Origin: Acidobacteriota bacterium
GTDB taxonomy: Bacteria; Acidobacteriota; Thermoanaerobaculia; Gp7-AA8
DNA length: 64,000 nt
Direction of reading: 5' to 3'
Assembly (NCBI GenBank): GCA_003223645.1
Contig: QHVT01000011.1
Coordinates: 124,001 to 188,000 of the forward strand
Shown: in pieces, positions 1-63,880 of the stretch
Position numbering within the stretch: position 1 is the stretch's first letter
How the letters are laid out: every line of letters begins with the position of its first letter
Translations under genes and position numbers: made by a program
Notes under the pieces: generated by a model
Told to the model about the DNA's origin: nothing
Database searches by the model: none
Seen by the model: the letters and a program-made list of their open reading frames with translations, nothing else

Positions 1-79
1 TGCCGAACAGCAGGAACTGATTCGCGGCCGTGGACGCGTAAAGAGAGATGAGCTTTTCAGCCCAGTTGGGGAGGCTCAT
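1..79 (-). CDS. N-terminus of an AAA+ ATPase-like protein (partial)
   Basis: A leftward reading frame begins with ATG at 79 and runs off the window, giving 26 residues that start MSLPNWAEKLISLYASTA and continue into a hydrophobic strand (NQFLLFG). This resembles the opening of AAA-family ATPases that sit next to PspA-like genes, but with only 26 residues the family is an inference. It lies downstream of the membrane coiled-coil gene and the PspA-like gene on the same strand, which suggests a three-gene membrane-stress operon. A GGCTCATA-type repeat separates it from the upstream gene and starts just before its start codon. Confidence 0.45.
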   Translation of the reverse strand, partial: MSLPNWAEKLISLYASTAANQFLLFG

Positions 80-241
80 GGGTGCAGGCTCACAGGCTCA
101 CAGGCTCATAGACTCATAGGCTCATAGGCGCACAGGCTCATAGGCGCACAGGCTCATAGGCGCACAGGCTCATAGGCTCACAGATCATATTGTGGTCGGT
201 GGCTCCTCTGGGCCCATGAGCCTCTGAGCCTCTGCGCCTGT
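69..241. repeat. Palindrome whose arms are tandem GGCTCATAGGC words
   Basis: Positions 69-184 contain about a dozen copies of the word GGCTCATAG/GGCTCACAG, some expanded to GGCTCATAGGCGCACA. Positions 203-241 carry the complementary words (CCCATGAGCCTCTGAGCC), so the two sides can pair. The right arm lies inside the 3' end of the 266-aa gene and encodes its last residues. The same family occurs at 7252-7372 and 20500-20584. Confidence 0.8.
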
Positions 242-985: not shown

Positions 986-999
986 GTCAGGCTACGCCC

Positions 1000-1160
1000 G
1001 ATGGCGGCTGCGCTGATGGCGGATGGCGGATGGCAGCTGCGCTGATGGCGGATGGCAGATGGCAGATGGCAGAGGTGATGAAGTGCTCATATTGATCTTT
1101 CCACTTTTGCCATCTGCCATCTGCCATCCGCCATCCGCCATCAGCGCAGCCGCCATCGGG
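1000..1160. repeat. Palindrome whose arms are tandem GATGGCGGATGGCAG words
   Basis: The left arm (about 1000-1073) repeats GATGGCGGATGGCAGATGGCAG. The right arm (about 1106-1160) repeats the complement (GCCATCTGCCATCCGCCATC) and ends with GCGCAGCCGCCATCGGGCG, which mirrors the left edge. About 30 nt of unrelated sequence forms the loop. It fills the junction between the PspA-like gene and the membrane coiled-coil gene. A shorter member is at 28033-28113. Confidence 0.8.
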
Positions 1161-1168
1161 CGAAGCCC

Positions 1169-1915
1169 TCACTCCGTCGCCGGCCCCATCGACTTCACCG
1201 GCTCGGCTGCCGGCGCGCTTACGTCCGCGGACGGTTCGATCGCGATTCCTTCTTTTGCCGCAAAGTCGGCGAGCGCCTGTTCGGCGAGCGCCTTCTGTTC
1301 TTCTTCCTTCTCCACGATCTCGGAGGTGTTCATCGAGTCGCGCGCGACGCGCGCGCGTCCGGCCGCTTTCTCGCGCTCTTCCTCGACCATCTTGTGCAGG
1401 CGGTCGAGTGTGTCGCCCGAGCCGCCGATCGAGGTGATCATTCCCGATGCCATCTCCGTCAGCTCGGCCGTCGCCTTCTTGATCTTCAGATCATCGAGGC
1501 TCGACTTCAGCTCCTGAATCTTCGCCTGCGCCGCCTTCACCGACACGTCGCGCGCTTTGATCAATTCTTTGTAGGTCGTCTCCGCCTGCTGCAGCTGCGT
1601 GCGGTTCTCCGTCAGCTCGCGCTGGCTGCTCTGCAAACGCAGCGCGTAGTTGCCCGCGGCTTCGCGATTTCCTGCGCGCAGGTTCGCGGCCGTCTTCGCG
1701 CGCAGTTCGCGCTCTTCCGTCTCCAGCCTGCGGATCTGCGTCATGAGGCGCTCGCAGAGTCCGGCGTGCGCGGCGAGTCCCTCGTTGTAATTCCCGATCT
1801 GCTTGCGGAGGTGTTCCTTCTCCACCTCGAGCAGCGCCTCGGGGTTCTGGCGCTCGAGTCCGGAAATGAAAAGCCCGAAGAAACCGCGGATCAGGTTGCC
1901 GAGTCGTTTGAACAT
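1169..1915 (-). CDS. PspA/IM30 (Vipp1)-like membrane-stress protein
   Basis: The product is 248 aa, close to the usual 220-260 aa of PspA/IM30 proteins. It opens with an amphipathic helix (MFKRLGNLIRGFFGLFISGL), as expected for a peripheral membrane binder, then has a long coiled coil (about 25-190) rich in E, K, Q and A with the layout of the ESCRT-III-like fold. The C-terminal tail is acidic and Ala/Pro-rich. The start is well supported: AAGGAG lies 6 nt upstream of ATG 1915. Family members polymerise on the inner membrane to counter stress. The downstream membrane coiled-coil gene and the partial AAA-ATPase-like gene look like operon partners, by analogy with the PspA-PspF AAA partnership (inference). 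Confidence 0.8.
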   Translation of the reverse strand: MFKRLGNLIRGFFGLFISGLERQNPEALLEVEKEHLRKQIGNYNEGLAAHAGLCERLMTQIRRLETEERELRAKTAANLRAGNREAAGNYALRLQSSQRELTENRTQLQQAETTYKELIKARDVSVKAAQAKIQELKSSLDDLKIKKATAELTEMASGMITSIGGSGDTLDRLHKMVEEEREKAAGRARVARDSMNTSEIVEKEEEQKALAEQALADFAAKEGIAIEPSADVSAPAAEPVKSMGPATE

Positions 1916-7251: not shown

Positions 7252-7372
7252 AGGCTCATGGGCACATGGGCTCAGAGGCTCATAGACGAGCTCCTGTGCG
7301 CCCATGAGCCCATGAGCCCATGAGCCACGAGCCCATGAGCCATGAGCCATGAGCCTATGAGCCTATGAGCCT
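7252..7372. repeat. GGCTCATG/CATGAGCC word palindrome
   Basis: The left arm (7252-7290) carries GGCTCATGGGCACATGGGCTC words. The right arm (7296-7372) carries about nine CCCATGAGC/CCTATGAGC words. It occupies the whole junction between the SDR and the ketoacyl-synthase gene and runs up to the start codon of the latter, where the ATGAGC words create extra possible start codons. Confidence 0.8.
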
Positions 7373-9258: not shown

Positions 9259-10763
9259 GCGAACGCGCGCGCGTCACGCCCGATCGCCTCGCGCTCGTGT
9301 CGATCGAAACCGGCGAGCGCCTGACGTACGCGCAACTCGACGAGCGCACCGAGCGCGCAGCGCAAACGTTGCGTGCGATCCTGAAGCCGGGGGACCGCTT
9401 TGGCATCCTCGCGCACAACTGCATCGAATTCCTTGAGCTGTTCTTTGCAGCGGGAAGAGCCAACGCAATCGCGGTTCCGCTATCGACGCGCGCGACCGCG
9501 CACGAGTTGACGCACATCGCAACCGATTGCGAAATGCGCGCACTGTTCTACACGAACGAATTCGCCGATATTGCTCTCGCGCTACCCGTCCCCACGAAGC
9601 TCGCTTTTCCCGCGCCCGCGCCCGTGCCCGCTTCCGCGCCCGGGGCGGCGGTTTTAGTCGCTTCGCTCGCCCCCACCCCGGGCGCGGGAGCGGGCGCGGG
9701 CACGGGAAAAGACCGGGGCGCGGGCGCGGGTTCGGGCGCGGGTCCGGACGAACAAACTTACTGTCTGTTGTACACGAGCGGCACGACGGGAAAACCCAAG
9801 GGCGTCATGATCCCCAAACGCCAGCTCTACTGGAACGGCTACAACACGGCGCTCAATTGGGGCTTGAGAGAAGACGACGTCTCCCCGGTCTTCACTCCGC
9901 TCTACCACGCCGGCGGCATCGCCGCGTTTCTCATCCCCATCTTCTGCGCCGGCGGCACGATCGTCCTCCATAAATCTTTCCACGTCGCGCAGGTCTGGCG
10001 CACGATCGAACAGGAGCGCTGCACCGTCGTGTTGGGCGTGCCGACCATCTGGAAGTTGTTGATGGAGGCGTCGGAGTTCGCGACCGCGGACTTGAAATGC
10101 GTCCGCTGGTTCATCTCCGGCGGCGCGCCGCTCCCGCAGTACATCATCGACGCGTATCAACAGCGCGGCGTCGTCTTCAAACAGGGCTACGGCATGACCG
10201 AAGTCGGCGTGAACTGCTTCACGATGACGGTCGAGGATTCGTTCAGGAAACCAGGATCGATCGGCAAGCCGATGCTCTTCACCGAAGTGAAGCTCGAGAA
10301 CATGGACGGAAATGTCGGCGAGATGTACATCCGCGGACCGCACGTCTCCCTCGGCTACTGGAACAACGAAGAGGCGACGCGCGCGGCATACGGCGACGAC
10401 GGCTTCTTCCGCACCGGCGATCTCGCGCGACGCGACGAAGACGGCTTCTTCTACATCGCCGGACGCCGCAAGGAAATGTTCATCAGCGGCGGCGTGAACG
10501 TCTATCCCGCCGAGATCGAAGCGGAGCTGGTCGCGCATCCGTCCGTCTCCGACGCCGCCGTCATCGCCATCCCCGACGACACGTGGGGCGAAGCCGGCGT
10601 CGCCTTCATCGTCGGCAACATCACCTCCGACGATCTCACCGCCTACCTCGGCCTGCGCATCGCGAAATACAAGCTCCCGCGGCGCTTCGTCTTCGTAGAC
10701 GCATTGCCGCGTACACCGTATGGAAAAGTAGAGAAGGAGAAGTTACGGACGCTGCTGAGCTAG
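9237..10763 (+). CDS. AMP-forming acyl-CoA synthetase / ligase (ANL superfamily)
   Basis: The product is 508 aa, typical for class-I acyl-CoA synthetases. It shows the P-loop motif LLYTSGTTGKPKGVM, the A5 motif YGMTE, the A7 motif FRTGDLARRDEDGFFYIAGR, the hinge and A8 region FISGGVNVYPAEIE, and the terminal catalytic lysine context RTPYGKVEKEKL. It activates a carboxylic acid to acyl-AMP and then to acyl-CoA. Residues about 120-168 are a low-complexity insertion (PAPAPVPASAP and GAGAGAGTG) translated from a palindromic repeat. It lies just before the P-loop, in a surface linker. The gene follows the hydrolase and is followed by a TetR regulator 11 nt later. Substrate is unknown; a fatty or aryl acid is likely. 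Confidence 0.9.
   Translation: MFDFDLLSERARVTPDRLALVSIETGERLTYAQLDERTERAAQTLRAILKPGDRFGILAHNCIEFLELFFAAGRANAIAVPLSTRATAHELTHIATDCEMRALFYTNEFADIALALPVPTKLAFPAPAPVPASAPGAAVLVASLAPTPGAGAGAGTGKDRGAGAGSGAGPDEQTYCLLYTSGTTGKPKGVMIPKRQLYWNGYNTALNWGLREDDVSPVFTPLYHAGGIAAFLIPIFCAGGTIVLHKSFHVAQVWRTIEQERCTVVLGVPTIWKLLMEASEFATADLKCVRWFISGGAPLPQYIIDAYQQRGVVFKQGYGMTEVGVNCFTMTVEDSFRKPGSIGKPMLFTEVKLENMDGNVGEMYIRGPHVSLGYWNNEEATRAAYGDDGFFRTGDLARRDEDGFFYIAGRRKEMFISGGVNVYPAEIEAELVAHPSVSDAAVIAIPDDTWGEAGVAFIVGNITSDDLTAYLGLRIAKYKLPRRFVFVDALPRTPYGKVEKEKLRTLLS
9608..9749. repeat. CCCGCGCCCG/CGGGCGCGGG low-complexity palindrome inside the ligase gene
   Basis: The left arm (9608-9653) repeats CCCGCGCCCGTGCCC words and the right arm (9676-9749) repeats the complementary GGGCGCGGGCACGGG words. 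The ligase frame stays open and gains a Pro/Ala and then a Gly/Ala linker. Confidence 0.8.
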
Positions 10764-11389: not shown

Positions 11390-11437
11390 GGACGAGCGCG
11401 TGCGCGGGTGATTGAAGCGATCTCGCTTGAACGTGCT

Positions 11438-11572
11438 TTTCGTGCACCGGCCGGGAACGCAGAACGCAGAGCGCAGAATGTAGAAGTGAGAAGCACATCC
11501 GCCCATCGATGCGTTTCGGGCGGCCTTCTTACTTTTACGTTCTGCGCTCTGCGTTCTGCGTTCCGGGCCGGT
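11438..11572. repeat. GAACGCAGAACGCAGAGCGCAGAA palindrome
   Basis: The left arm (about 11438-11493) reads CACCGGCCGGGAACGCAGAA followed by CGCAGAGCGCAG words. The right arm (about 11528-11572) reads TTCTGCGCTCTGCGTTCTGC followed by GTTCCGGGCCGGTG. The centre is unrelated sequence of about 35 nt. It lies between the TetR gene and the VWFA gene. Confidence 0.8.
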
Positions 11573-11611
11573 GCGCGCAAAGCACGCAACAGGCGTACGA
11601 TTCGCCCAATC

Positions 11612-13636: not shown

Positions 13637-13644
13637 CCAATGTG

Positions 13645-13740
13645 GTGACCGCTGCCCTCAGCGGGTCACAGCGTCGCCGATGGCGGCGCCAGCGGCGCGT
13701 TTCGCGCCGCCGCGACCGCTGAGGGCAGCGGTCGCCACAA
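13645..13740. repeat. GTGGTGACCGCTGCCCTCAGCGG palindromic element
   Basis: Arms GTGGTGACCGCTGCCCTCAG and CTGAGGGCAGCGGTCGCCAC flank an inner hairpin (GATGGCGGCGCCAGCGGCGC). A second full copy in opposite orientation is at 36832-36926, and an arm fragment lies inside the MFS gene at 34928-34955. Confidence 0.85.
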
Positions 13741-20438: not shown

Positions 20439-20499
20439 TAGCAGTGGTTACGGGATTTCGCAATCCGAGGTTGCGGTGGACACAGTTTGTTCACAACGA

Positions 20500-20584
20500 G
20501 GCTCAAAGGCTCAGAGGCTCACAGGCGCATGGGCTCATAGCGCTCTGAGCCTTTGAGCCCATGAGCCTCTGCGCCTACGATGGC
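20500..20584. repeat. GGCTCAAAGGCTCAGAGGCTC word palindrome
   Basis: The left arm GGCTCAAAGGCTCAGAGG and onwards (20500-20538) is mirrored by CTCTGAGCCTTTGAGCCCAT and following words (20542-20578). It separates the divergent blaI and GT39 genes and ends next to the GT39 start. Confidence 0.8.
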
Positions 20585-20586
20585 TC

Positions 20587-22074
20587 ATGCCGCAACGCGT
20601 CGCCTGGCGAATCGTGCTCACCTTCGCCGCAGTCAAGCTCGTCCTCGCGTTCTACGCCTCCGGCTACTACGACTACTTCCGCGACGAGCTCTACTTCATC
20701 GCCTGCGGGCGTCATCTTGACTGGGGCTACGTCGATCATCCGCCGCTCGTCGCGATTTACGCCTGGATCGGCGAGCACCTCGGCGGCGGCCTGCGCGGCT
20801 TTCGCCTCCTCTCGACGCTCGCCGGCACGCTGCGTCTCGTGCTGACCGGCGTGCTCACCGCGCGCCTTGGCGGCGGTCGCGTGGCGCAGGCACTCGCGTG
20901 CGTCGCGGTGCTGCTGACGCCGTGCTATCTCGCGGTCGACACGATCATGTCGATGAATGTATTCGAGCAGGTGATCTGGCTCGCGTGCGTGCTGATCGTC
21001 GTCGAGATCGCGAACGGCGCGAGCGAGAAGTGGTGGCTCGCGTTCGGTGCGGTGGCGGGCATCGGGTTGCAGAACAAGCACTCGATGGTTTTTTTCGGTG
21101 CGGCAATCTTCGCGTCACTGCTCCTCACGCCGATGCGCCGATCATTGATGCGACCATGGATCTGGCTCGGCGGCGCGATCGCGCTCGTGATCTTTCTGCC
21201 GAATCTCATCTGGGAAGTGCAGCACGACTTCGCGACGCTGGAGCTGCTGCGCAACGTGAAGGCGACGGGCAAGAACGTCGTCCTCGGACCGATCGCATTC
21301 GTCGTGCAGCAGGCGATGATGCTCAATCCGTTCTTCGCGCCGCTCTGGATCGCGGGCCTCATTTTTCTCTTCCTGCGGCCGCGTTACCGCGTGCTCGGAT
21401 GGACGTACCTCATCCTGCTGGTCATCATGATCAAGCTCGAGGCGAAGGACTACTACCTCGCGCCGATCTACACGATGTTGTACGCGGCCGGCGCGGTTTG
21501 GCTGTCGGCGCGGCGATGGGCGTGGATCGCGATGCTCGCGCTGATCGTCATCGGCGGACTGATCTCCGCGCCGCTCGTGCTGCCGCTTCTCCCGCCGGAG
21601 AAATACCTCGCATATCAGCGCGCCCTCGGCGTGAAGCAGCACAAGACCGAAGTGTCATTCAACTCGGAGATGCCGCAAATCTTCGCCGACCAGTTCGGAT
21701 GGCGCGAGATGGTCCGCGAAGTCGCGCGCATCTACGACGCGCTGCCGCCGGACGTGCGCGCGAAGACGGCGATCTATTGCAGCAACTACGGCGAAGCCGG
21801 CGCGATCGATTTCTACGGACCGCAATACGGCCTGCCGCGTGCGATCAGCGGACATCAGAACTATTTCTTCTGGGGACCCCGCGACTACAGCGGCGAGTCG
21901 ATGATCGTGATTGCCTCGGCCATCGTCCGCACGCGTCCGTTTTACTCACGCATCGACACCGTCGGACAACGCAACCATCCGTACGCGATGCCGGACGAGA
22001 ACGGACCGATCTTCTACTGCGTTACAAAGCGTCCGCTGCGCGAGATCTGGCCGAACTACAAGAACTGGCGGTGA
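20587..22074 (+). CDS. GT39/PMT_2-type membrane glycosyltransferase
   Basis: The product is 495 aa. It opens with a membrane helix and the acidic first loop DYFRDELYFIACG, then LDWGYVDHPPL, the classic D-E and DHPP signature of ArnT/PMT_2 proteins that take sugars from polyprenyl phosphate. About ten further hydrophobic segments follow to residue 345, then a soluble C-terminal domain of 150 residues. It should glycosylate a lipid or protein at the periplasmic side. The start codon directly abuts a word palindrome and no ribosome-binding site is evident. It is monocistronic as far as can be seen. Confidence 0.85.
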   Translation: MPQRVAWRIVLTFAAVKLVLAFYASGYYDYFRDELYFIACGRHLDWGYVDHPPLVAIYAWIGEHLGGGLRGFRLLSTLAGTLRLVLTGVLTARLGGGRVAQALACVAVLLTPCYLAVDTIMSMNVFEQVIWLACVLIVVEIANGASEKWWLAFGAVAGIGLQNKHSMVFFGAAIFASLLLTPMRRSLMRPWIWLGGAIALVIFLPNLIWEVQHDFATLELLRNVKATGKNVVLGPIAFVVQQAMMLNPFFAPLWIAGLIFLFLRPRYRVLGWTYLILLVIMIKLEAKDYYLAPIYTMLYAAGAVWLSARRWAWIAMLALIVIGGLISAPLVLPLLPPEKYLAYQRALGVKQHKTEVSFNSEMPQIFADQFGWREMVREVARIYDALPPDVRAKTAIYCSNYGEAGAIDFYGPQYGLPRAISGHQNYFFWGPRDYSGESMIVIASAIVRTRPFYSRIDTVGQRNHPYAMPDENGPIFYCVTKRPLREIWPNYKNWR

Positions 22075-22077
22075 TGA

Positions 22078-22170
22078 CCTCGGTTGCGCGGTTACTCGGT
22101 TGCGCAGTTGCGCGGCGGGCAGGCGCTACTTTGCCGCGCAACCGCGCGACCGCGTAACCGCGTAACCGCG
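22078..22170. repeat. GGTTGCGCGGTTAC word palindrome
   Basis: The left arm (22081-22119) repeats CGGTTGCGCGGTTACTCGG and the right arm (22132-22170) repeats the complement (CCGCGCAACCGCGCGACC). It fills most of the gap between the GT39 gene and the deoxyhypusine-synthase-like gene. Confidence 0.8.
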
Positions 22171-22189
22171 TGATATACGATTCGCCTCC

Positions 22190-23164
22190 ATGTCCGGACC
22201 GATTACAGAGTTCATCGACCATCACTACCGCCACTTCAACGCCGCCGCGTTGAAAGCCGCGGCGATCGACTACAACAAGCATCTCGAGAAGGGCGGGAAC
22301 ATGCTGGTCACGCTCGCCGGCGCGATGTCGACGGCGGAGCTCGGGCTGTCGCTCGCGGAGATGATCCGCCAGGGCAAAGTGCACGCGATCAGCTGCACCG
22401 GCGCGAACCTCGAGGAAGACATCTTCAACCTCGTCGCGCACGACTGCTACGAGCGGGTGCCGCACTATCGCTATCTCTCCGCGCTCGACGAGCAGGCGCT
22501 GCTCGACCGGCACATGAACCGCGTCACCGACACCTGCATCCCCGAGGGTGAGGCGATGCGCAGAATCGAATCGGCGGTGCTGAAACATTGGGTCGACAAA
22601 GATCGCGCGGGCAAGCGCCTCTTCCCGCACGAGTTCATGTACGAGATCCTCCGCGATGGCTCGATCGAGGAGTACTACCAGATCGATCCGAAGAGCTCCT
22701 GGATGGTCGCGGCCGCGGAAAAGAATCTGCCGATGTTCGTCCCCGGCTGGGAAGACGCGACCCTCGGCAACATGTACGCCGGCCACTGCATCTCCGGCGA
22801 CGTGAAGAACGTCCACACCGTGCGCACCGGCATCGAATACATGATGGAGCTCGCCGAGTACTACACGCGCATCTCCGTGGAGTCATCGATCGGCTTCTTC
22901 CAGATCGGCGGCGGCATTGCCGGCGACTTCCCGATCTGCGTCGTCCCGATGCTGCACCAGGACCTCCAGCGCACGAACGTCCCGCTGTGGGGCTACTTCT
23001 GCCAGATCAGCGACTCGACCACGAGCTACGGCTCCTACTCCGGCGCCGTGCCGAACGAGAAGATCACCTGGGGCAAGCTGGGCGTCGACACGCCGAGCCA
23101 CGTGATCGAGAGCGACGCGTCGATCGTGGCGCCGCTGGTTTTTGCGTATGTGCTGGGTTGGTGA
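22190..23164 (+). CDS. Deoxyhypusine-synthase-family protein (homospermidine-synthase-like)
   Basis: The product is 324 aa. The NAD-binding and spermidine-handling fold is recognisable: MLVTLAGAMSTAELGLSL near residue 37, ISCTGANLEED near 70, SSIGFFQIGGGIAGDF near 236, and the catalytic-lysine region ITWGKLGVDTPS followed by DASIVAPLVFAYV. The lysine of the WGK motif is the residue that forms the imine intermediate in the family. Bacteria lack eIF5A, so the enzyme more likely makes homospermidine or another butylamine adduct from spermidine or putrescine. It stands alone, without polyamine genes nearby. Substrate is an inference. Confidence 0.85.
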   Translation: MSGPITEFIDHHYRHFNAAALKAAAIDYNKHLEKGGNMLVTLAGAMSTAELGLSLAEMIRQGKVHAISCTGANLEEDIFNLVAHDCYERVPHYRYLSALDEQALLDRHMNRVTDTCIPEGEAMRRIESAVLKHWVDKDRAGKRLFPHEFMYEILRDGSIEEYYQIDPKSSWMVAAAEKNLPMFVPGWEDATLGNMYAGHCISGDVKNVHTVRTGIEYMMELAEYYTRISVESSIGFFQIGGGIAGDFPICVVPMLHQDLQRTNVPLWGYFCQISDSTTSYGSYSGAVPNEKITWGKLGVDTPSHVIESDASIVAPLVFAYVLGW

Positions 23165-23465: not shown

Positions 23466-26282
23466 GTGAATCGTCTTCCCTATGCGCTTCTTCTCACGCT
23501 AGCACTTCGCTCATTTGCCGCCACGCCGATCGAAACCCACATCCGCACGCTGGCCTCTGACGCGATGGAAGGCCGCGGTCTCGGCACTGCCGGACTCGCG
23601 AAATCCGCCGATTACATCGAGAAGCAGCTCCGCGACGCGAAGTTGCAGCCCGCATTCGGCAAGTCCTATCGCCAGAAGTTCCCCGTAAAAATGGGCGTGT
23701 CCCTCGGCGCGAAGAATCACATCGACGGTTTGTCGGACGACGACTGGACGCCGCTCGGGTTTTCATCGGCCGGCTCGTTTTCCGCGCCGATCGCGTTCGT
23801 CGGCTACGGCATCGACGCGCCGCCGTTGAACTATCGCGAGTACGAAGGCATCGATCTCAAGGGCAAGGTCGCGCTGATGCTGCGGTACGAGCCGCAGGAG
23901 CGCGACGACAAGTCGCCGTTCGACGGACGCAAGCCGAGCCGCTGGTCTGCTCTGCGCTACAAAGCACTTCAGGCGCGCGAGCGCGGCGCGGTCGCGGTGG
24001 TGTTCGTGACCGGGCCGCAGCAGGATGAAGCGAAGGACAAACTGCCCGCGCTCGCGAATGACGGGCCGGAGAGTCCGGCCGGACTGCCGGTGATTCAGGT
24101 GAAGGCGAGCGTCGCGCAGAAGTGGCTTGCAAAAGTATTGTCGCTTGCGCAATTTCAGAAAGACGTCGACGCCGATCTGAAGCCGCGCTCGCGCGTGCTC
24201 GACGCGACGCTCACTGGCAACGTCGACATCGCCGCGACGTACGCGGACGCGGAAAATGTCGCCGGGATTCTTCCCGGCCGCGGCAAGCTCGCGAACGAAG
24301 TCGTGGTCGTCGGCGCGCACTACGATCACCTCGGCTACGGCGGCAAGGGCTCGATGAAGCCGAACGAGCACGCGATCCACAACGGCGCGGACGACAACGC
24401 GTCGGGCACTGCCGCCGTGCTCGTCGCCGCAAAGCGCCTGACCGAGTTACTCAAAGACGCGACCGATCGCCGCACGATCGTCATCGCGCTTTTCTCGGCC
24501 GAAGAAGTCGGACTCGGCGGATCGTCGTATTTCGTCGCGCATCCGCCGCTGCCGCTCGCGAACGTGAAGGCGATGATCAACCTCGACATGGTCGGCGCGA
24601 TGCACGACGACAAGCTGATCGCCCTTGGCAGCGAGTCCGCGCCGGAATGGAAGTCGCTGCTCGATCGCGTCGGCGGCGAGTTGCATCTCAACGTCGCCGC
24701 GAGCGGCGACGGCTACGGCCCGTCCGATCAGACGAGCTTTTACGCGCATCAGATTCCCGTCATTCACTTCTTCACCGGCACGCACGAGCGCTATCACACG
24801 CCGGAAGACGACGCGGATGCGATCAACTTCGACGGCGCGCAGAAAGCGTCGGAGATGACGGCGCGCGTCGCGGCGTCGCTCGCGCGCGGCGATGTCACGC
24901 CGGCGTACGCGCGCGCAACGTCCGCTCCGGCGATGGAAGGCGACAGCCGCGGCTACGGCGCCTACCTCGGCACGATTCCCGACTACAGCGCGATGGAGTC
25001 GTCGACCGGCGGCGTGAAGCTCGCCGACGTGCGCAGCGGCGGACCGGCCGATCTCGCCGGGATCAAAGGCGGCGACACGCTCGTCGAAATGGCCGGCACG
25101 CGCATCCAGAACTTGTACGACATGACCTACGCGCTGCAGGACCACAAGCCCGGCGAAACGATTGACGTCGTCGTGCTGCGCAACGAACAGCGCGTCACGC
25201 TGCACGCGACGCTCGGCACGCGTGGTGGTGGAGGACAGGCGATCTCGCCTGTCCCGGCGCACGGACAGGCAGGATTGCCTGTCCTCCACATCGCAGCCGG
25301 CAAGCCGTTCGAGAAAACGTTCGACGGCGAGAAGCATCTGAAGGACATCCGACAGCTGACCTTCGGCGGCGAGAACGCCGAGGCGTACTTCAGTCCGGAC
25401 GGGAAAAAGCTCATTTACCAATACACGCCCGAGCGCGGCGGCTGCGATCAGCAGTACATCATGGATCTGACGACCGGCGAGTCGAAGCGCGTGTCGAGCG
25501 GCAACGGACGCACGACGTGCGGCTACTTCGCGTATCCGAACGGCGATCGCGTCATCTACGCGTCGACCGAGGCCGCGGGCGCGGAGTGCCCGCCTCCGCC
25601 GGACCGCAGCCGCGGATACATCTGGGGCGTGTTCCCGTCGTACGACATCTACGTCGCCAACGCCGACGGATCGAACAAGAAGCGCCTGACGACGACGAAC
25701 GGCTACGACGCCGAAGGCGTGTGGTGTCACAAAGGCGGCAGGATCCTCTTCACGTCCGTGCGCGACGGCGATCTCGATCTTTACACGATGGACGAGGACG
25801 GCGGGAACGTGAAGCGCCTCACCAACACCGTCGGCTACGACGGCGGCGCGTTCTTCAACGCCGACTGCACGGAGATCGTCTGGCGCGCGTCGCGATTCGA
25901 AGGCGCCGCGCTCGATGAATACAAAGCGCTTCTCTCGGAAGGATTCGTCAAACCCTCGAAGATGGAGCTCTACACCGCCAACGCCGACGGCACCAACGCA
26001 CGCCAGCTCACGAAAAACGGCGCCGCCAACTTCTGCCCCTACTTCACGTCCGACGGCAAACGCATCATCTACTCATCGAACATGCTCGATCCGCGCGGCC
26101 GCGAGTTCGACATCTTCATCATCAACAAAGACGGCACCGGCGACCCCGAGCGCATCACCACCGCGCCCGCCTTCGACGGCTTCCCGATGTTCAGTCCCGA
26201 CGGCAAGTTCCTCGTGTGGGCGTCGAACCGCGCGAACCCGGAGGGGAGGGACACGAATTTGTTCATTGCGCGGTGGGAGTAG
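23466..26282 (+). CDS. Secreted M28 aminopeptidase with PA, PDZ and TolB-like propeller domains
   Basis: The product is 938 aa with a GTG start and signal peptide (MNRLPYALLLTLALRSFA). Residues about 90-250 form a PA-like insert. Residues about 250-475 form the M28 zinc peptidase: GAHYDHLG (H and D ligands), NGADDNASG, SAEEVGLGG and INLDMVGAM. Residues about 490-590 form a PDZ domain (GGPADLAGIKGGDTLVEMAG). Residues about 620-938 form TolB/WD40-like repeats (YFSPDGKKLIY, IYVANADGSNKKRLT, ELYTANADGTNARQLT). It probably trims extracytoplasmic peptides, with the propeller and PDZ binding substrate. A GGACAGGC palindrome lies in-frame between the PDZ and propeller domains. Confidence 0.9.
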   Translation: MNRLPYALLLTLALRSFAATPIETHIRTLASDAMEGRGLGTAGLAKSADYIEKQLRDAKLQPAFGKSYRQKFPVKMGVSLGAKNHIDGLSDDDWTPLGFSSAGSFSAPIAFVGYGIDAPPLNYREYEGIDLKGKVALMLRYEPQERDDKSPFDGRKPSRWSALRYKALQARERGAVAVVFVTGPQQDEAKDKLPALANDGPESPAGLPVIQVKASVAQKWLAKVLSLAQFQKDVDADLKPRSRVLDATLTGNVDIAATYADAENVAGILPGRGKLANEVVVVGAHYDHLGYGGKGSMKPNEHAIHNGADDNASGTAAVLVAAKRLTELLKDATDRRTIVIALFSAEEVGLGGSSYFVAHPPLPLANVKAMINLDMVGAMHDDKLIALGSESAPEWKSLLDRVGGELHLNVAASGDGYGPSDQTSFYAHQIPVIHFFTGTHERYHTPEDDADAINFDGAQKASEMTARVAASLARGDVTPAYARATSAPAMEGDSRGYGAYLGTIPDYSAMESSTGGVKLADVRSGGPADLAGIKGGDTLVEMAGTRIQNLYDMTYALQDHKPGETIDVVVLRNEQRVTLHATLGTRGGGGQAISPVPAHGQAGLPVLHIAAGKPFEKTFDGEKHLKDIRQLTFGGENAEAYFSPDGKKLIYQYTPERGGCDQQYIMDLTTGESKRVSSGNGRTTCGYFAYPNGDRVIYASTEAAGAECPPPPDRSRGYIWGVFPSYDIYVANADGSNKKRLTTTNGYDAEGVWCHKGGRILFTSVRDGDLDLYTMDEDGGNVKRLTNTVGYDGGAFFNADCTEIVWRASRFEGAALDEYKALLSEGFVKPSKMELYTANADGTNARQLTKNGAANFCPYFTSDGKRIIYSSNMLDPRGREFDIFIINKDGTGDPERITTAPAFDGFPMFSPDGKFLVWASNRANPEGRDTNLFIARWE
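25224..25289. repeat. GGACAGGCGATCTCGCCTGTCC-type repeat inside the M28 gene
   Basis: Two palindromes, GACAGGCGATCTCGCCTGTC and GACAGGCAGGATTGCCTGTC, lie between GTGGTGGAG and CTCCAC ends. Translated, they give GGGGQAISPVPAHGQAGLP in the linker between PDZ and propeller domains. Confidence 0.8.
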
Positions 26283-26345: not shown

Positions 26346-28123
26346 AGGCGCAGCCGCACCCACCCGCGCGTGACGCGGCCTGATTGTGGGCCCGCTGCCT
26401 GAGGTGCAAAGACGAATTGGTCGAATACGTTCGCTGCGTCCGCGCCGATGGTGAGCGCGACGCGTTTGATCGGCACTGTGTAGCGTAGGGCTATGTCGAA
26501 TGCGTTTTCATCATCCGGTGCGAAAAACTGGAATGAGGACGTGAAGCGATAAGCGACCATGATGCCAAGGGCCTGCTCGCCGAGGGGTATGTCGGCGCTG
26601 AGCCAGGCATTTGCCGTATGCGCGGGCAGGTTGAAGTCCGAGCGCATGTACGTGTAATTGACTCCGGCTTCGAAGCGATCGAAGAGGCGGTAATTGCTGT
26701 CGAGCTGGATCAGCGTGCGTGATTGCTGCGAGACGTAGTCGTCGTGAATGACGTTGAGCCGCGCGCTGCCGGTCGACCCGAGCGCCATCACGTATCCGAC
26801 TGTGAATTCGTCGAGATGATTGGCGTAAAACGAATAACGAGTCGCGGACGCTGTAATGGCGTTTCTGCCGCGGCCGCGAAGGTCATAAGCAGCGGCGACT
26901 TGAGCACTGAGGCCGTCGTCGTCGGAAAAGCCACCGACGTTGTAGCCGATCCCGCTGATGCGGCCGTAGCGGATACCGGCATTGAAGAGCCAGCGATTGC
27001 GCCAAAGGCGGTCACTGATGAACAACCCGCGCTGGTCGACATTGCCGCTGGTGCTGTCGATGCCCGCGCTCAAAACGTGGTCGCCGGCCACGAAGGACGC
27101 TTTGGCCGAGACATTGTCCTGATCGAACCCTTGTAAGCGCAATGCGGAGACTTCGGTGAGGAAGCGCGGCGTCCATTGAGCGACGTGATCGACGACCGTC
27201 AGCCCGATGAAGTCGTCGGAGTGCGCGGCGGTCAGGTTCTGACGCGGGTCGAGTTGCGCCGTCAACTTGAGCTCGAAGCCGCGCTCGTGAAACGTAAAGC
27301 GGTCGGCGCGATCGCCGTCCCATCCGGCGGCGAAAAACCAGAGGCGACTCGGAATGATGCGGCCGCCGCTGGCAATTTCGCCGAAATGGCGGCCGCCTTT
27401 CGTGATCGTGTCGCGCAGGCTGAACGTGAAATCCTCGCCGCCGGTGCGCGTGCGCGTGACGATCGCGGTCGCCGCGCTCGTGGGGGCCAGCTCCAGCGGC
27501 GTCACCGCGCGAATGAACGTCATCTCGTCGATCGTCTCGCTTTGGATCCCTCCGCCGTCGGTCTCGATGAACGGCGCGTTCGGAAAGCGGTCCGGCGAAA
27601 GATAGAGCGCCGTCGTGTAGTCGATCGGCACCGGCAGTTGATCGAGCTGCTTCGCGTTGCGATGCAGCGACAGGGCGGTGTCGTGCACGACGCTGATCGT
27701 CGTCGCGGTCGACGTGACGCTGTCTTCGTCTTCGCTCGGCTCGAGCTGCGCGTCGGCGCGCGCGATGCGCGCGAGCTCGACGACCGCGCGGCGCGTGAGC
27801 GACTGCAATCCCACGTGCGCGAACGTCACATCGTATTGGCCGGGCGGCAGTGCACCGAGCCAGTACGTGCCGCTCGCGCCGGTCGTCGTCACGCGCGGTG
27901 CCTGCAACGCGGGCGACGTCGCCGTGACCGTCGCATTCGCGACCGGTTTGCCCGCGCTGGTGATGCGTCCTGTAAGCGCGCTCGTGCTCACGGCCGCGAA
28001 CATGTGCGGCGCGAAGAGCAGGAGGAGCGCCGAGAAGATCAGATGGCAGATGGCAGATGGCAGATGGCGGTAGGCCGCCCTGTCCGCCATCCGCCATCCG
28101 CCATCCGCCATCCTGAACATCAT
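26330..28123 (-). CDS. Outer-membrane receptor-like protein with CarboxypepD_reg domain
   Basis: The product is 597 aa. After an odd N-terminus, a hydrophobic signal core ([16 protein letters not shown]) leads into a CarboxypepD_reg domain (about 47-130: [39 protein letters not shown]). A plug-like segment (about 150-235, [20 protein letters not shown]) and a barrel of alternating strands follow, ending [12 protein letters not shown]. It is shorter than normal TonB receptors. The start ATG 28123 overlaps the ettA stop, implying translational coupling. The first 25 residues ([15 protein letters not shown], then [11 protein letters not shown]) are encoded by a GATGGCGG palindrome, so the native start was probably lost or extended by the repeat. 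Confidence 0.75.
28033..28113. repeat. GATGGCAG/GCCATCCGCCATC palindrome at the start of the receptor gene
   Basis: The left arm (28033-28069) repeats AGATGGCAG words, the loop is about 12 nt, and the right arm (28084-28113) repeats CCGCCAT words. It lies within the first codons of the leftward receptor-like gene. Confidence 0.8.
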
Positions 28124-29796
28124 CGACTCAATTGCCGGTAACGAATGCGATGCGGCTCGGTCGCGTCGGCGCCGAGGCGTTTGCGCTTGTCTTCCTCGTA
28201 CTCGCTGAAATTGCCGTCGAAGTAATACACGCGGCTGTCGCCTTCGAACGCGAGGATGTGCGTGGCGACGCGGTCGAGGAACCATCGGTCGTGGCTGATC
28301 ACGATCGCGCAGCCGGCGAAATTCTCCAGCGCTTCTTCGAGTGCGCGCATCGTGTTCACGTCGAGGTCGTTCGTCGGCTCGTCGAGGAGCAGCACGTTCG
28401 CTCCCTCCTTCAACATCTTCGCCAGATGCACGCGATTGCGCTCGCCGCCGGACAACGCGCCGACTTTTTTCTGCTGGTCCTGTCCCGAGAAATTGAAGCG
28501 GGCGACGTACGCGCGCGAGCTCATCTCGCGCGGCCCGAGCTGTACGACCTCGCCGCCGCCGGTGATCTCTTCGAAGATCGTCTTGTCGCCGTCGAGCGTG
28601 CGCGACTGATCGATGTAGGCGAGCTTCACCGTTTCGCCGACCCGGATCGTTCCGTCGTCGGGTTGCTCCTGCCCGACGATCATGCGAAAGAGCGTCGTCT
28701 TGCCCGCGCCGTTCGGACCGATCACGCCGACGATGCCGCCCGGCGGAAGCTTGAACGACATTCCGTCGATGAGCAGGTTCTCGCCGTACGCTTTCGCGAC
28801 GCCGTCGGCGTCGACGACGATGTTGCCGAGGCGCGGACCGGGCGGGATGTAGATCTCCAGCTCCTGGATTTTTTCCTTCGTCTCCTGCTGCAGAAGGTTC
28901 TCGTACGCGTTGATGCGCGCTTTTCCTTTCGCGTGCCGCGCTTTTGGCGACATGCGAATCCACTCCAGCTCGCGCTCGAGCGTTTTCTGGCGGCTCGACT
29001 CCGATTTTTCTTCCTGCTCGAGACGTCCCTTCTTCTGCTCGAGCCAGGACGAATAGTTGCCTTTCCACGGAATCCCTTCGCCGCGATCGAGCTCGAGAAT
29101 CCAGCCCGCGACGTTGTCGAGGAAGTAGCGGTCGTGGGTGACGGCGATGACGGTACCGGCGTATTTCTGCAGATGTTGTTCGAGCCACTGCACGCTTTCG
29201 GCGTCGAGATGGTTCGTCGGCTCGTCGAGGAGCAGGATGTCCGGTTCCTGCAGGAGCAACCGGCACAATGCAACGCGCCGTTTCTCTCCGCCGGAACACT
29301 TCGCGATCGGCGTGTCGCCGGGCGGGCAGCGCAGCGCGTCCATCGCCATCTCCAGCTTCGAGTCGAGGTCCCACGCGCCGGCGGCGTCGAGCTTGTCCTG
29401 CACTTTAGCCTGGCGATCCATCAGCTTGTCCATGTCGGCGTCGGGATCGGCGAAGGCGTTGTTGATGTCGTCGAATTCTTTGAGCAGATCGAGGACCGGT
29501 TGCACGCCTTGCTGCACGACTTCGAGGACGGCCTTCGTTTCGTCGAGCTTCGGCTCTTGTTCGAGGAGGCCGACGGTGTAGCCGGGCGACAGGACGGTCT
29601 CGCCGAGGTGGTCTTTGTCGATGCCGGCGAGAATGCGGAGCAGCGTCGACTTGCCTGATCCATTGAGACCGAGCACGCCGATTTTCGCGCCGTAGAAATA
29701 GGAGAGGTAGATGTCTTTCAGGACCTGTTTCTTCCCGTGAAACTTCGAGACACCGACCATCGAGTAGATGACTTTGTTCGGTTCGGGTTGTGCCAT
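28120..29796 (-). CDS. ettA: EttA, ABC-F translational throttle ATPase
   Basis: The product is 558 aa, matching the usual length of about 555. It has two ABC cassettes without membrane segments: Walker [10 protein letters not shown] (about 45) and GPNGAGKTT (about 355), signatures SGGEKRR and SGGERNR, Walker [12 protein letters not shown] and [11 protein letters not shown]. The linker between cassettes is charged and contains the EttA-specific [18 protein letters not shown] segment. EttA binds the ribosomal E site and gates the first elongation steps according to ATP/ADP ratio. ATG 29796 is well placed. It overlaps the downstream receptor-like gene by 4 nt, an unusual partner for a translation factor. 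Confidence 0.93.
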
Positions 29797-31514: not shown

Positions 31515-31613
31515 TGTCATTCCGAGCCGCGAAGACGGCGAGGAATCCCCCGCCGAAGCACGACCAACGCTCCGTCGGCGGGAGATCCTTCGCCGTCTTC
31601 GCGGCTTCTAATG
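31515..31613. repeat. GTCATTCCGAGCCGCGAAGAC palindrome
   Basis: The left arm GTCATTCCGAGCCGCGAAGA (with CGGCGAGGAATCCC) is mirrored by GGGAGATCCTTCGCCGTCTT (with CGCGGCTTCTAATGAC). It is a member of the GTCATCCCGAGC family. Confidence 0.8.
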
Positions 31614-31618
31614 ACAGC

Positions 31619-31752
31619 CCCTCATCCGCCCTTCGGGCACCTTCTCCCCGCATGCGGGGAGAAGGTCAACAAATCTCGATGCTCGTACATGTTGCCCCTC
31701 GCCCCGCATGCGGGGCGAGGGTGGCGCGAAGCGCCGGGTGAGGGGCGGTCAT
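31619..31752. repeat. CCCTCATCCGCCCTTCGGGC / GGGTGAGGGG composite palindrome
   Basis: It starts CCCCTCATCCGCCCTTCGGG, contains two dyads (TCTCCCCGCATGCGGGGAGA and GCCCCGCATGCGGGGC) and ends CGCGAAGCGCCGGGTGAGGG. Short spacers separate the blocks. It differs from the neighbouring GTCATTCC family and lies downstream of the leftward PP2C gene. Confidence 0.75.
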
Positions 31753-36827: not shown

Positions 36828-36831
36828 TTGT

Positions 36832-36926
36832 GGCGACCGCTGCCCTCAGCGGTCGCGGCGGCGCGAAGCGCCGCTGGCGCCGCCATCGGCGGCGCTGTGA
36901 CCGCTGAGGGCAGCGGTCACCACAAA
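36832..36926. repeat. GTGGCGACCGCTGCCCTCAGCGG palindrome, second copy
   Basis: This is the same element as 13645-13740 in opposite orientation, including the inner GGCGCGAAGCGCCGCTGGCG block. It fills the gap between two convergent genes. Confidence 0.85.
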
Positions 36927-42888: not shown

Positions 42889-43252
42889 ATGAGCCAGTTG
42901 AGCACATCAGCGGCCGGTATTCGGTCGCATCAATGCGTCCATCGGTGTCATCGACGACACGATCGGTGTCATCGACGACACGATCGGTGTCATCGACGGG
43001 ACCATCGGTGTCATCGACGACACGATCGGTGTCATCGACGAGACGATCGGTGTCATCGATGGGACGATCGGTGTCATCGACGAGACGATCGGTGTCATCG
43101 ATGCGACGATCGGTGTCATCGATGGGTCGATCGATGCCGTCAACACCTTCATCGATCGCGTCGATGCGACCGGAATCCGGGTGCTCGTGGCCGCGCGCCG
43201 CCAGGGCCGCACAGTCCGCCCAACTCGTCCGAAGCATCAATCAAACCTTTGA
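42889..43252 (+). CDS. Heptad-repeat (putative coiled-coil) protein, needs one frameshift
   Basis: ATG 42889 sits at the predicted transcription start and gives MSQLSTSAA. The informative frame begins one base later and reads FGRINASIGVIDDT, then nine seven-residue units of the pattern I-G-V-I-D-x-T, then SIDAVNTFIDRVDATG and a basic tail (RRQGRTVRPTRPKHQSNL). The stop is at 43252. Loss of one G in GCGGCCGGTATT (about 42910-42919) would join the two. Differences between repeat units in this frame include silent changes (GAC/GAT, ACG/ACC), which supports it as the coding frame. Without the correction there is no in-frame ATG, GTG or TTG. About 120 aa; no family recognised. It is followed 12 nt later by the 173-aa gene. 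Confidence 0.5.
42941..43129. repeat. Nine tandem copies of a 21-bp unit
   Basis: The unit is ATCGGTGTCATCGACGACACG with variation at the sixth and seventh codons (GAC, GAG, GGG or GCG, then ACG, ACC or TCG). All three forward frames and one reverse frame stay open across it. Copy number could vary by slippage without changing the frame. Confidence 0.9.
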
Positions 43253-52569: not shown

Positions 52570-52592
52570 GTTCCGTTTTCTTAGTTTTCAGT

Positions 52593-52717
52593 TTATCCCG
52601 CGCGCAGACGCGGGATCTCCCGGTGATACGCGCGATGCAGCTGCCCATGTAGCGTTGTGTAGGCAGCCGCATCGCGAGTATCACGAGGAGATCCCGCGTC
52701 TGCGCGCGGGATAAACT
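52593..52717. repeat. TATCCCGCGCGCAGACGCGGG palindrome
   Basis: Outer arms TATCCCGCGCGCAGACGCGG (with GATCTCC) and the exact complement (52689-52717) enclose inner arms GATACGCGCGATGCAGCTGC and GCAGCCGCATCGCGAGTATC. The stem is nearly 60 bp long, one of the longest here, and lies between corA and ald. Confidence 0.85.
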
Positions 52718-52726
52718 ACAAAAAAA

Positions 52727-53842
<1,116 letters not shown>

Positions 53843-63000: not shown

Positions 63001-63880
63001 CGCTCAGTGACGGTTGCTGCGTCGGCCATGCCTTCACGCTCGCGCCTTGCAGCGGGCGTTCTTTCGCATCGCGTACGACGCCGCTGATCGAGTGCGACGT
63101 CTCGAGCTTGATCTCCATTTCGGCGGCGCGTTTTGCGCTGCCGAATTCGGACGGCGTGTACGCTTCGATCGACTTGATGTCTTCGTCGAGGTGGGCGATG
63201 ACGAACGTGCCGTCGTCGCGCGTCGTCCCGGCGGGCCAGTTGCCGGCGAACAGTTTTGCTTTTGCGACCGGAGCGCGATCGCTGCCGAGGACGCGTCCGC
63301 GCACGCTTGCGCCAGGGACCAGCCTGATGTCGAGCGACGCATTGGTCGTCGCGTCGACGAGAAGCGGTGCGTAATCGGAATGGACAACGTGCAGCGCGCT
63401 TGTCCAGCGCTTCGGATCAGGGACCGTGAACGATCCTTTCTCATCGGTGCGCGTTGACCACGCCACGCCTTCGCTCGTTTCCGCGATCACGATCGCGTTG
63501 GCGACCGGCTTTCCTCCCGCGGTGACACGTCCGCTGCGCGTCGCGGCGGCATCGAGATCGATCGCCAGCTCGCTGTCGTCGACGAGCACCTGCTGCATCT
63601 TCGGCGCATAGCCGTCGCGCGACACGATGACGTCGACGACGCCCTGCACTTTCGTGTCGATCGAGAACATTCCTTCCGCATTCGTCGTCGCGCTGCCGAT
63701 CGCCTCGCGCTCGCGTCCGGCGACGACCCGCTCGCGCCAATCGATCATCGTCTCGCGGCGGTAGGCGGCGACGCGCGCTTTGTCGACGGGCGTGCCGTCG
63801 CTCGAAAACACCGCGCCGCGAATCGCGGCGTGCAGAGGCGCAGAAAGAGCGAGAAGAGCGACGAATGCGAACCGGCGCAT
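60044..63880 (-). CDS. Giant secreted protein made of repeated CarboxypepD_reg domains
   Basis: The product is 1278 aa with a signal peptide (MRRFAFVALLALSAPLHA). It is built almost entirely of about a dozen Ig-like carboxypeptidase-regulatory domains of 80-95 residues. Each begins with a G-R-V/I strand (SGRVTAGGKPVANAIVIAET, RGRVLGSDRAPVAKAKLFAG, SGVVRDAKERPLQGASVKAW, RGRVVDKATNGALPGFNISA) and ends with a D-G-x-F/Y...L.PG motif (SDGTFAVRSLRPGTYKLQYT). No barrel, peptidase or anchor is visible, so it is likely a periplasmic or surface scaffold. It lies downstream of a gene that only just enters the window and may be in its operon. Confidence 0.85.
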   Translation of the reverse strand: MRRFAFVALLALSAPLHAAIRGAVFSSDGTPVDKARVAAYRRETMIDWRERVVAGREREAIGSATTNAEGMFSIDTKVQGVVDVIVSRDGYAPKMQQVLVDDSELAIDLDAAATRSGRVTAGGKPVANAIVIAETSEGVAWSTRTDEKGSFTVPDPKRWTSALHVVHSDYAPLLVDATTNASLDIRLVPGASVRGRVLGSDRAPVAKAKLFAGNWPAGTTRDDGTFVIAHLDEDIKSIEAYTPSEFGSAKRAAEMEIKLETSHSISGVVRDAKERPLQGASVKAWPTQQPSLSDMRAAISDDKGNYRIESCGAKSYRVFADAPDLSFEEGSASLRNSRTARADFTAQASAFLTGTVIDDRKHPIAGAHVMMTIAQMPLIYALLQGEEGMPSARSGPDGRFRIAMTKQYQEFGDTTQLRLQATHPRYAIGVADLKDSAKPVAITLHDGIEVRGNVKDKDGNPVAGAAVILLQDPFGAVAVPLEMVLAGGHSEAFIESDGAGTFTVHLNETLHDLGVWKEGFAGFRLGGITPVKGQKPIEIVLQPGVEIRGRVAAKKSGIELEGLVAVESAEGMAQGTTAVASDGTFAVRSLRPGTYKLQYTSTLSRLSAEKVVKAPATDVVLELNAVGEIRGRVVDKATNGALPGFNISATNEAASSFNNGEFEGTETFMLAVRAGSVSVTATAPGYVSDTQEVTVGEEKPATVTFALTHGRTITGRVVNEHGLPIAKADISVSEQSIEGAQTADDGEFEIAGVPREPVKLDVQAQGFIAKSVDVEGDADRRVDVVLSAGRKVAGRVVTATGEPVEGAQVFGNATSGDGMQFAKSSADGTFTLEGLPDGRLSFRATRSDLGEAELEDVDPAATSVVIAFPPSTGTGTIHGAVKGFTEHGWTFGSVVAGAGSQEFIRRDGTYKLENVRAGDVELRAFAMTQRDQVTTAPVKATVVANQDIEVNLAFGTDIVLRGTVTEGGQPSAFRAVGFSGEQGMRRTKTNESGAYEITGLEPGLYRVDVETSQRQTYNTQYQLSGSATFDIAISFAQIHGRVVDETGAPQPGTQVEVSEHSIATDANGAFTISINEADAYVVTATKKGFATAVQKVSDARTPVVFTLVRSGGLNVRLTDARDGKTLDGYVVATNDAGLVAARANEQQKDGSFNVPLAAGAYRVSVSANGYASQSIRATVPSNGELRLALTPGGNLIVHTDKPSNDLVKLVMPSGEEYVRCQCNGIAEIRLTGTTTTIDHVAPGRYTMQVLDAQGRIKTGYPVAIGEGQTTTAEVHVPE

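Follow-up and report, generated by a model that had tools for sequence, protein, structure and literature searches.

Heptamer arrays in Xanthomonas, cyanobacteria and Beggiatoaceae have been discussed case by case, in terms of G-quadruplexes, translation control or polymerase slippage. The arm of a REP element is a single non-repetitive stem, and DNA uptake sequences consist of one species-wide word whose enrichment is driven by competence. Rehm et al. (2015; PMC4692102) describe GGGAATC and GGGGA(C/T)T heptamer repeats in Xanthomonas and Nostoc, including two close arrays in convergent orientation (70 cases in Xcc and 75 in Xac) and a preference for four units. Kaasalainen et al. (2015; PMC4476775) report that the P6b stem of the Nostoc trnL intron is built on a heptad motif (TDNGATT or NNTGAGT), and MacGregor (2015; PMC4679880) reports TAACTGA heptamers as direct repeats in Beggiatoaceae, Cyanobacteria and Bacteroidetes. 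REPs lie next to 3' ends, provide TAG stops from element ends and have copies in DnaE2 genes (PMC3733652). Perfect inverted repeats enriched after stop codons across bacterial phyla were ascribed to termination in 2026 (PMC13155455), in a text that holds no word beginning Acidobacteri. For Acidobacteriota, a literature search in which subscription journals were sparsely covered returned no account of hairpins such as those described here.

The window analyzed is a stretch of 64,000 nucleotides (G000:C8:124001-188000, G000 being the own genome) from an Acidobacteriota genome of 6.38 Mb (51 contigs, GC ~63.6%). The GroEL of this genome shares 88% identity with that of a MAG named Thermoanaerobaculia, against 76% for the next of 16 named genomes compared, which places it in the Acidobacteriota and probably in that class; deoxyhypusine synthase, with hits over many phyla, gave no taxonomic information. 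A first-pass annotation had reported from the window seven palindromes whose arms are runs of tandem short words; at all seven, mirrored tandem-word arms are present where it had placed them, with words of 7-9 nt (Table 1), and these are exactly the hairpins that our catalogue of 7-9-mers, described below, contains within the window.

Table 1. Mirrored word arrays in the window (positions counted from its first nucleotide).
Feature	Coordinates	Strand	Remarks
Word hairpin GGCKCANR (8-mers)	69..241	.	Left arm 85-183 long, right arm 205-239 short
Word hairpin GATGGCR (7-mers)	990..1167	.	Plus outer non-word palindrome
Word hairpin GGCKCANR	7252..7372	.	FabH junction
Word hairpin GAANGCA (7-mers)	11432..11586	.	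With outer palindromic extension (...GCGCACCGGCCCGG)
Word hairpin GGCKCANR	20498..20577	.	Divergent junction, just upstream of PMT_2 gene 20587-22074
Word hairpin RGTYRCKC (8-mers)	22078..22171	.	Between PMT_2 and deoxyhypusine-synthase-like gene 22190-23164
Word hairpin GATGGCR	28036..28114	.	Directly after stop of ABC-F-like ATPase gene (28120-29796, minus)
Mirrored hexamer array (CCCGCG / CGGGCG)	9584..9747 (about)	.	Inside AMP-binding-enzyme gene

In the first hairpin the long left arm repeats with a period of 16 nt, or two words, and the minus-strand ORF 185-985 has its called 3' end within the hairpin; the second sits between this ORF and a PspA-like gene (1169-1915, minus strand) and carries in its left arm an extra 29-bp unit, with a 29-nt duplication at 1000-1065. 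The FabH-junction hairpin is flanked by a short-chain dehydrogenase gene, which ends at 7249, and by the 3-oxoacyl-ACP synthase III gene, which starts at 7365, and the RGTYRCKC hairpin starts ~4-7 nt past the PMT_2 stop codon. By eye, about seven more hairpins of the GAANGCA family have an outer extension like that of 11432..11586. The hexamer array has the architecture of the word hairpins with another word length, and stands outside the catalogue. The six window sites other than 69-241, folded as RNA (the first GATGGCR site as 990-1135), gave z values between -6.3 and -14.2, and at each of them none of 200 dinucleotide shuffles was as stable. Rfam and tRNA scans of the window gave no match.

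Own-genome counts come from 1.264 Mb (C21:1-700000, C4:1-380000, C8:1-120000 and the window), a non-random sample of ~20% of the genome on three large contigs. Lag-based detection found 273 arrays of period 7-11 there, 90 of the pairs they form being mirrored and 11 direct; three first-order Markov draws yielded 4, 6 and 8 arrays, none of them in a mirrored or direct pair. The single architecture that the first-pass annotation had seen at its sites was borne out by a catalogue of word patterns over the same sample, in which it recurs across 144 hairpins of eight families, mostly ~50-150 bp long (extremes 22 and 262); the patterns favor intact cores, and 134 of the hairpins lie outside called genes and 10 inside. 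A second, fold-based set comprises 155 stems of at least 18 bp around array clusters outside genes. It is looser (107 of the 155 overlap the catalogue, the remainder being other words or non-word stems), and occupancy and T-tract counts were therefore repeated on the 134 catalogued hairpins outside genes. Extrapolation to the whole genome gives about 680 (catalogue) or 780 (fold-based) hairpins, which bears on how bacteria tolerate roughly 700-800 such structures in closely packed operons. Over the whole genome, patterns were counted 569 times for GATGGCR x3 (control 0), 398 times for RGTYRCKC x2.75 (control 0), 197 times for GGCTCATNGGCTCAT (reversed-pattern control 0) and 148 times for GCCTCCNR x3 (control 3). 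No clustering of families along contigs was found (18 adjacent same-family pairs, null 20.4).

About nine word families account for most arrays, with 7-mer (GATGGCR, GAANKCA, GTGCYGR, GRATTGD, GATGAAN) and 8- and 9-mer (GGCKCANR, RGTYRCKC, GCCTCCNR, TAGGACNDA) consensus words. That words differ between sites, as had been noted earlier, is true insofar as several families exist, but each of them recurs at many sites. Arrays found by self-similarity, each assigned to whichever of nine preset words came closest, give a strict degenerate consensus, in which minor letters make up a few per cent, with GTGCYGR and GAANKCA having more of them; for GCCTCCNR, the counts are T38 C34 G30 A26 at N and A75 G51 C1 T1 at R. 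Conservation is located in the word core. Each hairpin consists of about four head-to-tail degenerate words (six in GAANGCA), a loop that is mostly unique, and a second arm made of reverse words. Neighboring arrays within 400 bp follow the order word...reverse-word in 158 cases versus 2 of the opposite, and no correct-polarity pair of neighboring arrays was found 400-6,400 bp apart. Composite transposons with word ends were considered and rejected, as no cargo-bearing element lies between neighboring arms up to 6.4 kb. Four words per arm are commonest in GATGGC (33 of 56 arms), GGCTCA (26 of 38), GGTTGCGC (28 of 44) and GCCTCC (12 of 16); GAANGCA arms peak at six (32 of 60), and the distribution is broader in GTGCTGG, ATAGGAC and GAATTG. 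Arms of equal length are slightly commoner than expected (62 versus 52.5, P=0.016).

Loops are mostly unique, with 8 similar pairs among the 144 hairpins, two of them near neighbors. The hairpins at C8 101031-101110 and 101819-101912 (own genome, contig coordinates) share an identical 35-nt loop region while their arm words differ; they occupy adjacent junctions, both of which are without hairpin in the same-genus relative introduced below, and the shared loop likely goes back to a local copying event. Among the matches listed no conserved end sequence was found, a subset of GAANGCA excepted, a family that has sub-families, some with an outer palindrome. Ten long-spacer hairpins (nine of 147-372 bp and one GAANGCA site) were printed and folded, and by reading 7 of the 10 hold a further palindrome or array in the loop and 3 none; the contents are CGTCATCCTGAGC-type or TGTGGAGCGGCGGCC-type palindromes, GC-rich hexamers and, in one GATGGCR hairpin, an RGTYRCKC hairpin. 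Such nesting is consistent with elements inserting into one another.

Like the heptamers of Xanthomonas and Nostoc (PMC4692102), these are degenerate tandem words, dispersed, near stop codons and in convergent pairs, with a preference for four units; heptamers of this kind are found here together with 8- and 9-mers. Those systems differ in having one G-rich word family per organism and in being discussed with G-quadruplexes (PMC4692102); here, by inspection, no GGG lies within GATGGCR, GAANKCA, GRATTGD, GGCKCANR, RGTYRCKC or TAGGACNDA, and GGG can arise across word joins (e.g., GGGGCTC). The Nostoc P6b stem likewise has degenerate heptads that pair across the stem, in a word class repeatedly replaced in place, but it is described as one stem of one intron and not as a set of many gene-boundary insertions (PMC4476775). 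The TAACTGA repeats also form dispersed intergenic heptamer arrays close to genes, yet they are direct and lie mostly upstream of start codons, with one indirect repeat in the Maribeggiatoa genome (PMC4679880). Where DNA uptake sequences have one word, the word hairpins have about nine. The present case generalizes the heptamer reports: this genome shows a more general form, with many words in one architecture, occupancy tied to gene boundaries, sites that are hairpin-free in a relative, and evidence against slippage as the origin.

Of 59 relatives drawn, one (G001) is of the same genus; G009, G011, G005, G012 and G004 are of the same family and G018 of the same order. Among 78 junctions syntenic with G001, 21 carry an own hairpin, and the hairpins are mostly absent from the same junctions of this relative: the gap has a median of 105 bp here versus 9 bp in G001, where 15 of the 21 gaps are at most 20 bp (two own junctions map to one G001 junction). 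If four junctions with less than 45% identity in a flank are omitted, such short gaps number 11 of 17; the class holds 1,501 of the 55,170 intergenic bp in a 791-kb sample of G001. The 57 hairpin-free junctions have median gaps of 39 bp here versus 9 bp in G001, with 32 of the 57 G001 gaps also at most 20 bp, so that short gaps are not specially chosen and occupancy simply ignores length. At C4:17557 a GAACGCA hairpin is common to the orthologous G001 junction, with the same words in the same order; at C21:613999, G001 has a hairpin of different words. An assembly artefact is an unlikely source to judge from the sequences, as a genome assembled separately has a same-word hairpin at its orthologous junction, and further genomes carry words of their own. 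In seven of ten relatives (G001, G002, G003, G004, G010, G011, G012) the FabH junction is free of a hairpin; in G009 it holds one of AGTGCTG/AGTACTG, in G005 a different sequence of ~50 bp, and that of G023 could not be compared. The GATGGCR hairpin at the ABC-F stop is absent from G001, and among the 13 relatives printed there G005 and G012 carry word-like arrays of other words.

In G009, G011, G005, G012, G004 and G018 (20-140 kb each), word arrays occur at 133-350 per Mb and use largely different words; the stretches were chosen around word-pattern hits (several of G009) or FabH and ABC-F hits (most others), so that these densities are not those of random samples. In G001, 391 kb hold 7 arrays, with 3 mirrored pairs, and the 20 kb sampled of G022 hold none. 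Strict detection gave 11 mirrored pairs in G009, 5 each in G011 and G012, 1 in G005 and none in the G004 and G018 stretches. With looser detection and a few more loci, G004 has 3 mirrored pairs, G009 has 13 of one polarity and 0 of the other, and each G012 and G004 word cluster is of single polarity, the GACGGATGG cluster of G011 showing 2 and 1. The RGTYRCKC pattern occurs in 4 of 297 genomes of the phylum (own 398, G009 102, G011 4, and G217 3 with 2 control hits), GCCTCCNR x3 in 2 of 297 (own 148, G267 5) and GATGGCR x3 in 3 of 60 (own, G009 with 3, G013 with 1). In viral contigs, GATGGCR x4 was found in 9 stretches, whose arrays look single-armed in the sequence around one match in each. 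Two viral contig stretches (L285, L292) each carry several different short-word direct arrays (e.g., AATAGCC, GAGGGGC, ATCTCAA).

Junction occupancy is 12-16% and alike for all gene orientations: 102/652 co-directional, 25/156 convergent and 25/156 divergent junctions hold a fold-based hairpin, and 89/652, 19/156 and 21/156, respectively, a catalogued one. It is tied to the gene boundary and does not scale with intergenic length. By hairpin-free gap, the pooled catalogue occupies 51/362 junctions at up to 20 bp, 40/239 at 20-100 bp and 38/360 above 100 bp; in seven bins from <5 to >400 bp, the fold-based counts are 48/287, 16/88, 29/114, 20/131, 19/151, 11/96 and 9/94, and the catalogue, for which only words enter the hairpin length, gives 21/260, 30/102, 24/107, 16/132, 23/166, 8/99 and 7/95. 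Stop codons lie a median of 5 nt from the catalogued hairpin edge (91/132 within 10 nt) and starts a median of 32 nt (30/134 within 10 nt), start distances being approximate as genes were called with a home-made dicodon caller. Of 28 fold-based hairpins in wide co-directional gaps, 10 overlap a stop or are at most 10 nt from it, where 1.4 would be expected, against 3 for starts. TAGGAC hairpins provide the TAG stop whenever they contain a called stop (12 of 12 cases). The catalogued hairpins outside genes thus hug 3' ends, yet divergent junctions are equally occupied.

Such a position after stop codons, with stable stems, recalls intrinsic transcription terminators with repetitive stems, and at word-defined edges there is a slight excess of T-tracts (6/133 ends, background 1.6%). 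At fold-defined edges, however, the count of 3/155 is near background, nearly all ends being without T-tract either way, and the occupancy of divergent junctions also speaks against terminators, which we consider extremely improbable. Alternatively, the hairpins could be RNA or DNA elements selected by the host at boundaries and kept per site, for mRNA end protection or for coupling or uncoupling neighbors. Occupancy that follows the junction rather than length, the strong RNA folds and the GAACGCA hairpin conserved with its word order in G001 would agree with this; against it stand the few arrays of G001, the turnover of words between genera and the behavior of free letters in paired words, for which five of eight families show no pairing excess and two a marginal one (see below). 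We regard such host selection as unlikely, though not negligible.

The earlier suggestion that the palindromes were made by slippage across a hairpin or by templated repair makes two predictions, as slippage should leave neighboring words alike at free letters and hairpin-templated repair should leave mirrored words alike. Long arms (more than 6 words) do show similarity of the first kind: in GGCTCA it is 0.65-0.74 at lags 1-3 versus 0.49 for words of other hairpins, in GTGCTGG 0.56-0.66 versus 0.52 and in GAANGCA 0.71-0.83 versus 0.59, with duplication-like similarity in GCCTCC too, on few words. Multi-word duplications are also visible at two window sites (the 16-nt unit at 85-183 and the 29-nt unit at 1000-1065), and a slippage hypothesis for heptamers is quoted in PMC4692102. 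In ordinary arms of up to 6 words, by contrast, lag-1 neighbors in five of eight families resemble each other at free letters about as much as, or less than, they resemble words from other hairpins (GGCTCA 0.455 versus 0.493; GGTTGCGC 0.534 versus 0.652; GCCTCC 0.276 versus 0.379; ATAGGAC 0.424 versus 0.426; GAATTG 0.606 versus 0.591), with an excess in GAANGCA, in GATGGC (0.551 versus 0.453) and slightly in GTGCTGG. When mirrored words are set against permuted ones at free letters, five of eight families have no pairing excess in either alignment, with GATGGC below permuted; GGCTCA (P 0.04) and ATAGGAC (P 0.012) each have a marginal excess in one alignment, and GAANGCA, the family with similarity of both kinds, has a clear one. 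In most families free letters are thus largely independent between neighbors and between arms. The suggestion therefore stands for some long arms, which slippage lengthens, but neither slippage nor templating accounts for the hairpins, as the same words occur at many unrelated sites and the junctions are empty in relatives; that replication slippage with hairpin-templated repair expanded small palindromes in place is, as their origin, very unlikely.

Independent letters could also result from a two-ended templated synthesis, in which an enzyme would add templated word copies to both 3' ends at breaks near gene ends before these are joined, the arms then being independent products of one template and the loop the join. 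This would cover the fixed polarity, the largely independent free letters, the strict degenerate consensus, the unique loops, the mostly unconserved flanks and the characteristic word number per arm. On the other side, arms are equal slightly too often, and two-letter positions such as K are hard to obtain from one template base. We know of no enzyme doing this in bacteria. Candidates for the generator were a telomerase-like reverse transcriptase, rejected as RVT_1 (PF00078) is missing from array-rich G004, G012 and G018, and Ku end-joining, rejected as Ku is present in array-poor G001 and absent from array-rich G004; neither a standard reverse transcriptase nor Ku is thus required, and we find two-ended synthesis distinctly unlikely.

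The hairpins resemble REP, BIME and REPIN elements (PMC3733652, PMC3116915) as dispersed palindromes in species-specific families that hug 3' ends, provide TAG stops and have occasional copies in DnaE2 genes; they differ by their arms of tandem words instead of one stem, by the lack of a GTAG/CGTC tag and of a directly linked RAYT, and by divergent junctions being equally occupied, whereas REPs are extragenic and mainly found between unidirectional and convergent genes. Nor are they short (20-40 bp) palindromes of the REP kind, as their arms usually have 4-6 words of 7-9 nt. The tags were found at 10/310 and 9/310 fold-based hairpin edges, with a background of 15/691 and 30/691. MITEs have terminal inverted repeats, a target-site duplication and a cognate autonomous transposon; of these features, inverted arms are present here, and target-site duplications were looked for by eye only, at 21 junctions. 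Were the hairpins canonical REP/REPIN elements, they would be mobilized by RAYT (Y1) transposases, and Y1_Tnp indeed has matches in array-rich G004, G005, G009, G011, G012 and G018 and none in G001, and two of the three loci read in relatives (L266, L267) have word arrays no more than ~1 kb from the Y1 gene, in addition to the REP-like genomic habits. Yet the own genome has a single weak Y1 match for about nine word families, G022 has six matches and no arrays in its 20 kb, and the own match and the three relatives' loci are, by eye, directly flanked by palindromes of the ordinary kind and not by word hairpins, on which ground RAYT mobilization was rejected; together with the missing tag, this makes it highly improbable. 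In L267 (2197-3342, G009), a PHP-domain gene that reads as DnaE2-like and lies downstream of the Y1 transposase gene contains a GGTTRCGC word hairpin in frame, and in L266 (1933-2769, G004) AGTCCTN-type word arrays extend into an IMS-domain (ImuB/DinB-like) gene.

The position pattern, the recognition-like consensus and the REP-like habits, here the TAG stops from TAGGAC hairpins and the in-frame copy in the G009 PHP-domain gene, lead us to interpret the hairpins as palindromic insertion elements read through their words. It is very probable that the hairpins were gained as palindromic insertions and that these are tied to gene boundaries. The whole statement, by which they are small REP/REPIN-like palindromic insertion elements with the word as recognition unit of a mobilizing factor, we favor tentatively, as a plausible reading that is far from assured. 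The word would be read by a candidate sequence-specific factor that copies or places the element, and the mirrored arms would let the element take hairpin form at the ends of genes, where an insert that folds on itself may be least harmful, since stop and next start would stay close in the folded mRNA. What counts against insertion elements is that no transposase is linked, that few recent whole-element copies are visible (the 8 loop pairs in 144 hairpins), that there is mostly no conserved end and that divergent junctions are as occupied as others, unlike with REPs. The near-independent free letters, unique loops and fixed polarity leave de novo writing as an alternative, in which an undescribed activity of this family would start on both sides of a gene boundary and write tandem copies of a degenerate word toward its middle, so that mirrored arrays form de novo, with word sets differing between genera through changed specificity. 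Xanthomonas heptamers and Nostoc P6b stems would then be like products and share this kind of activity; we hold this to be improbable. With insertion elements read through words as the preferred interpretation, the word letters behave like a recognition consensus, and the origin of bacterial heptamer repeats thereby becomes testable via a word-reading factor.

The window also holds ordinary palindromes whose arms are not word arrays (13641-13739, 25228-25289, 31515-31616, 31638-31723, 36828-36925, 52576-52731), a second palindrome class beside the word hairpins, with a TGTGGTGACCGCTGCCCTCAGCGG-type sequence at two places among them. A 21/63-bp tandem repeat (ATCGGTGTCATCGACGAGACG) at 42921-43170 has a period that is a multiple of three and possibly encodes a 7-residue protein repeat, and a 1278-aa protein encoded at 60044-63880 contains 11 matched CarboxypepD_reg stretches. 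Finally, the best relatives of the deoxyhypusine-synthase-like gene (22190-23164) are spread over many phyla (Verrucomicrobia, Nannocystis, Hymenobacter, Opitutae), which suggests horizontal transfer.
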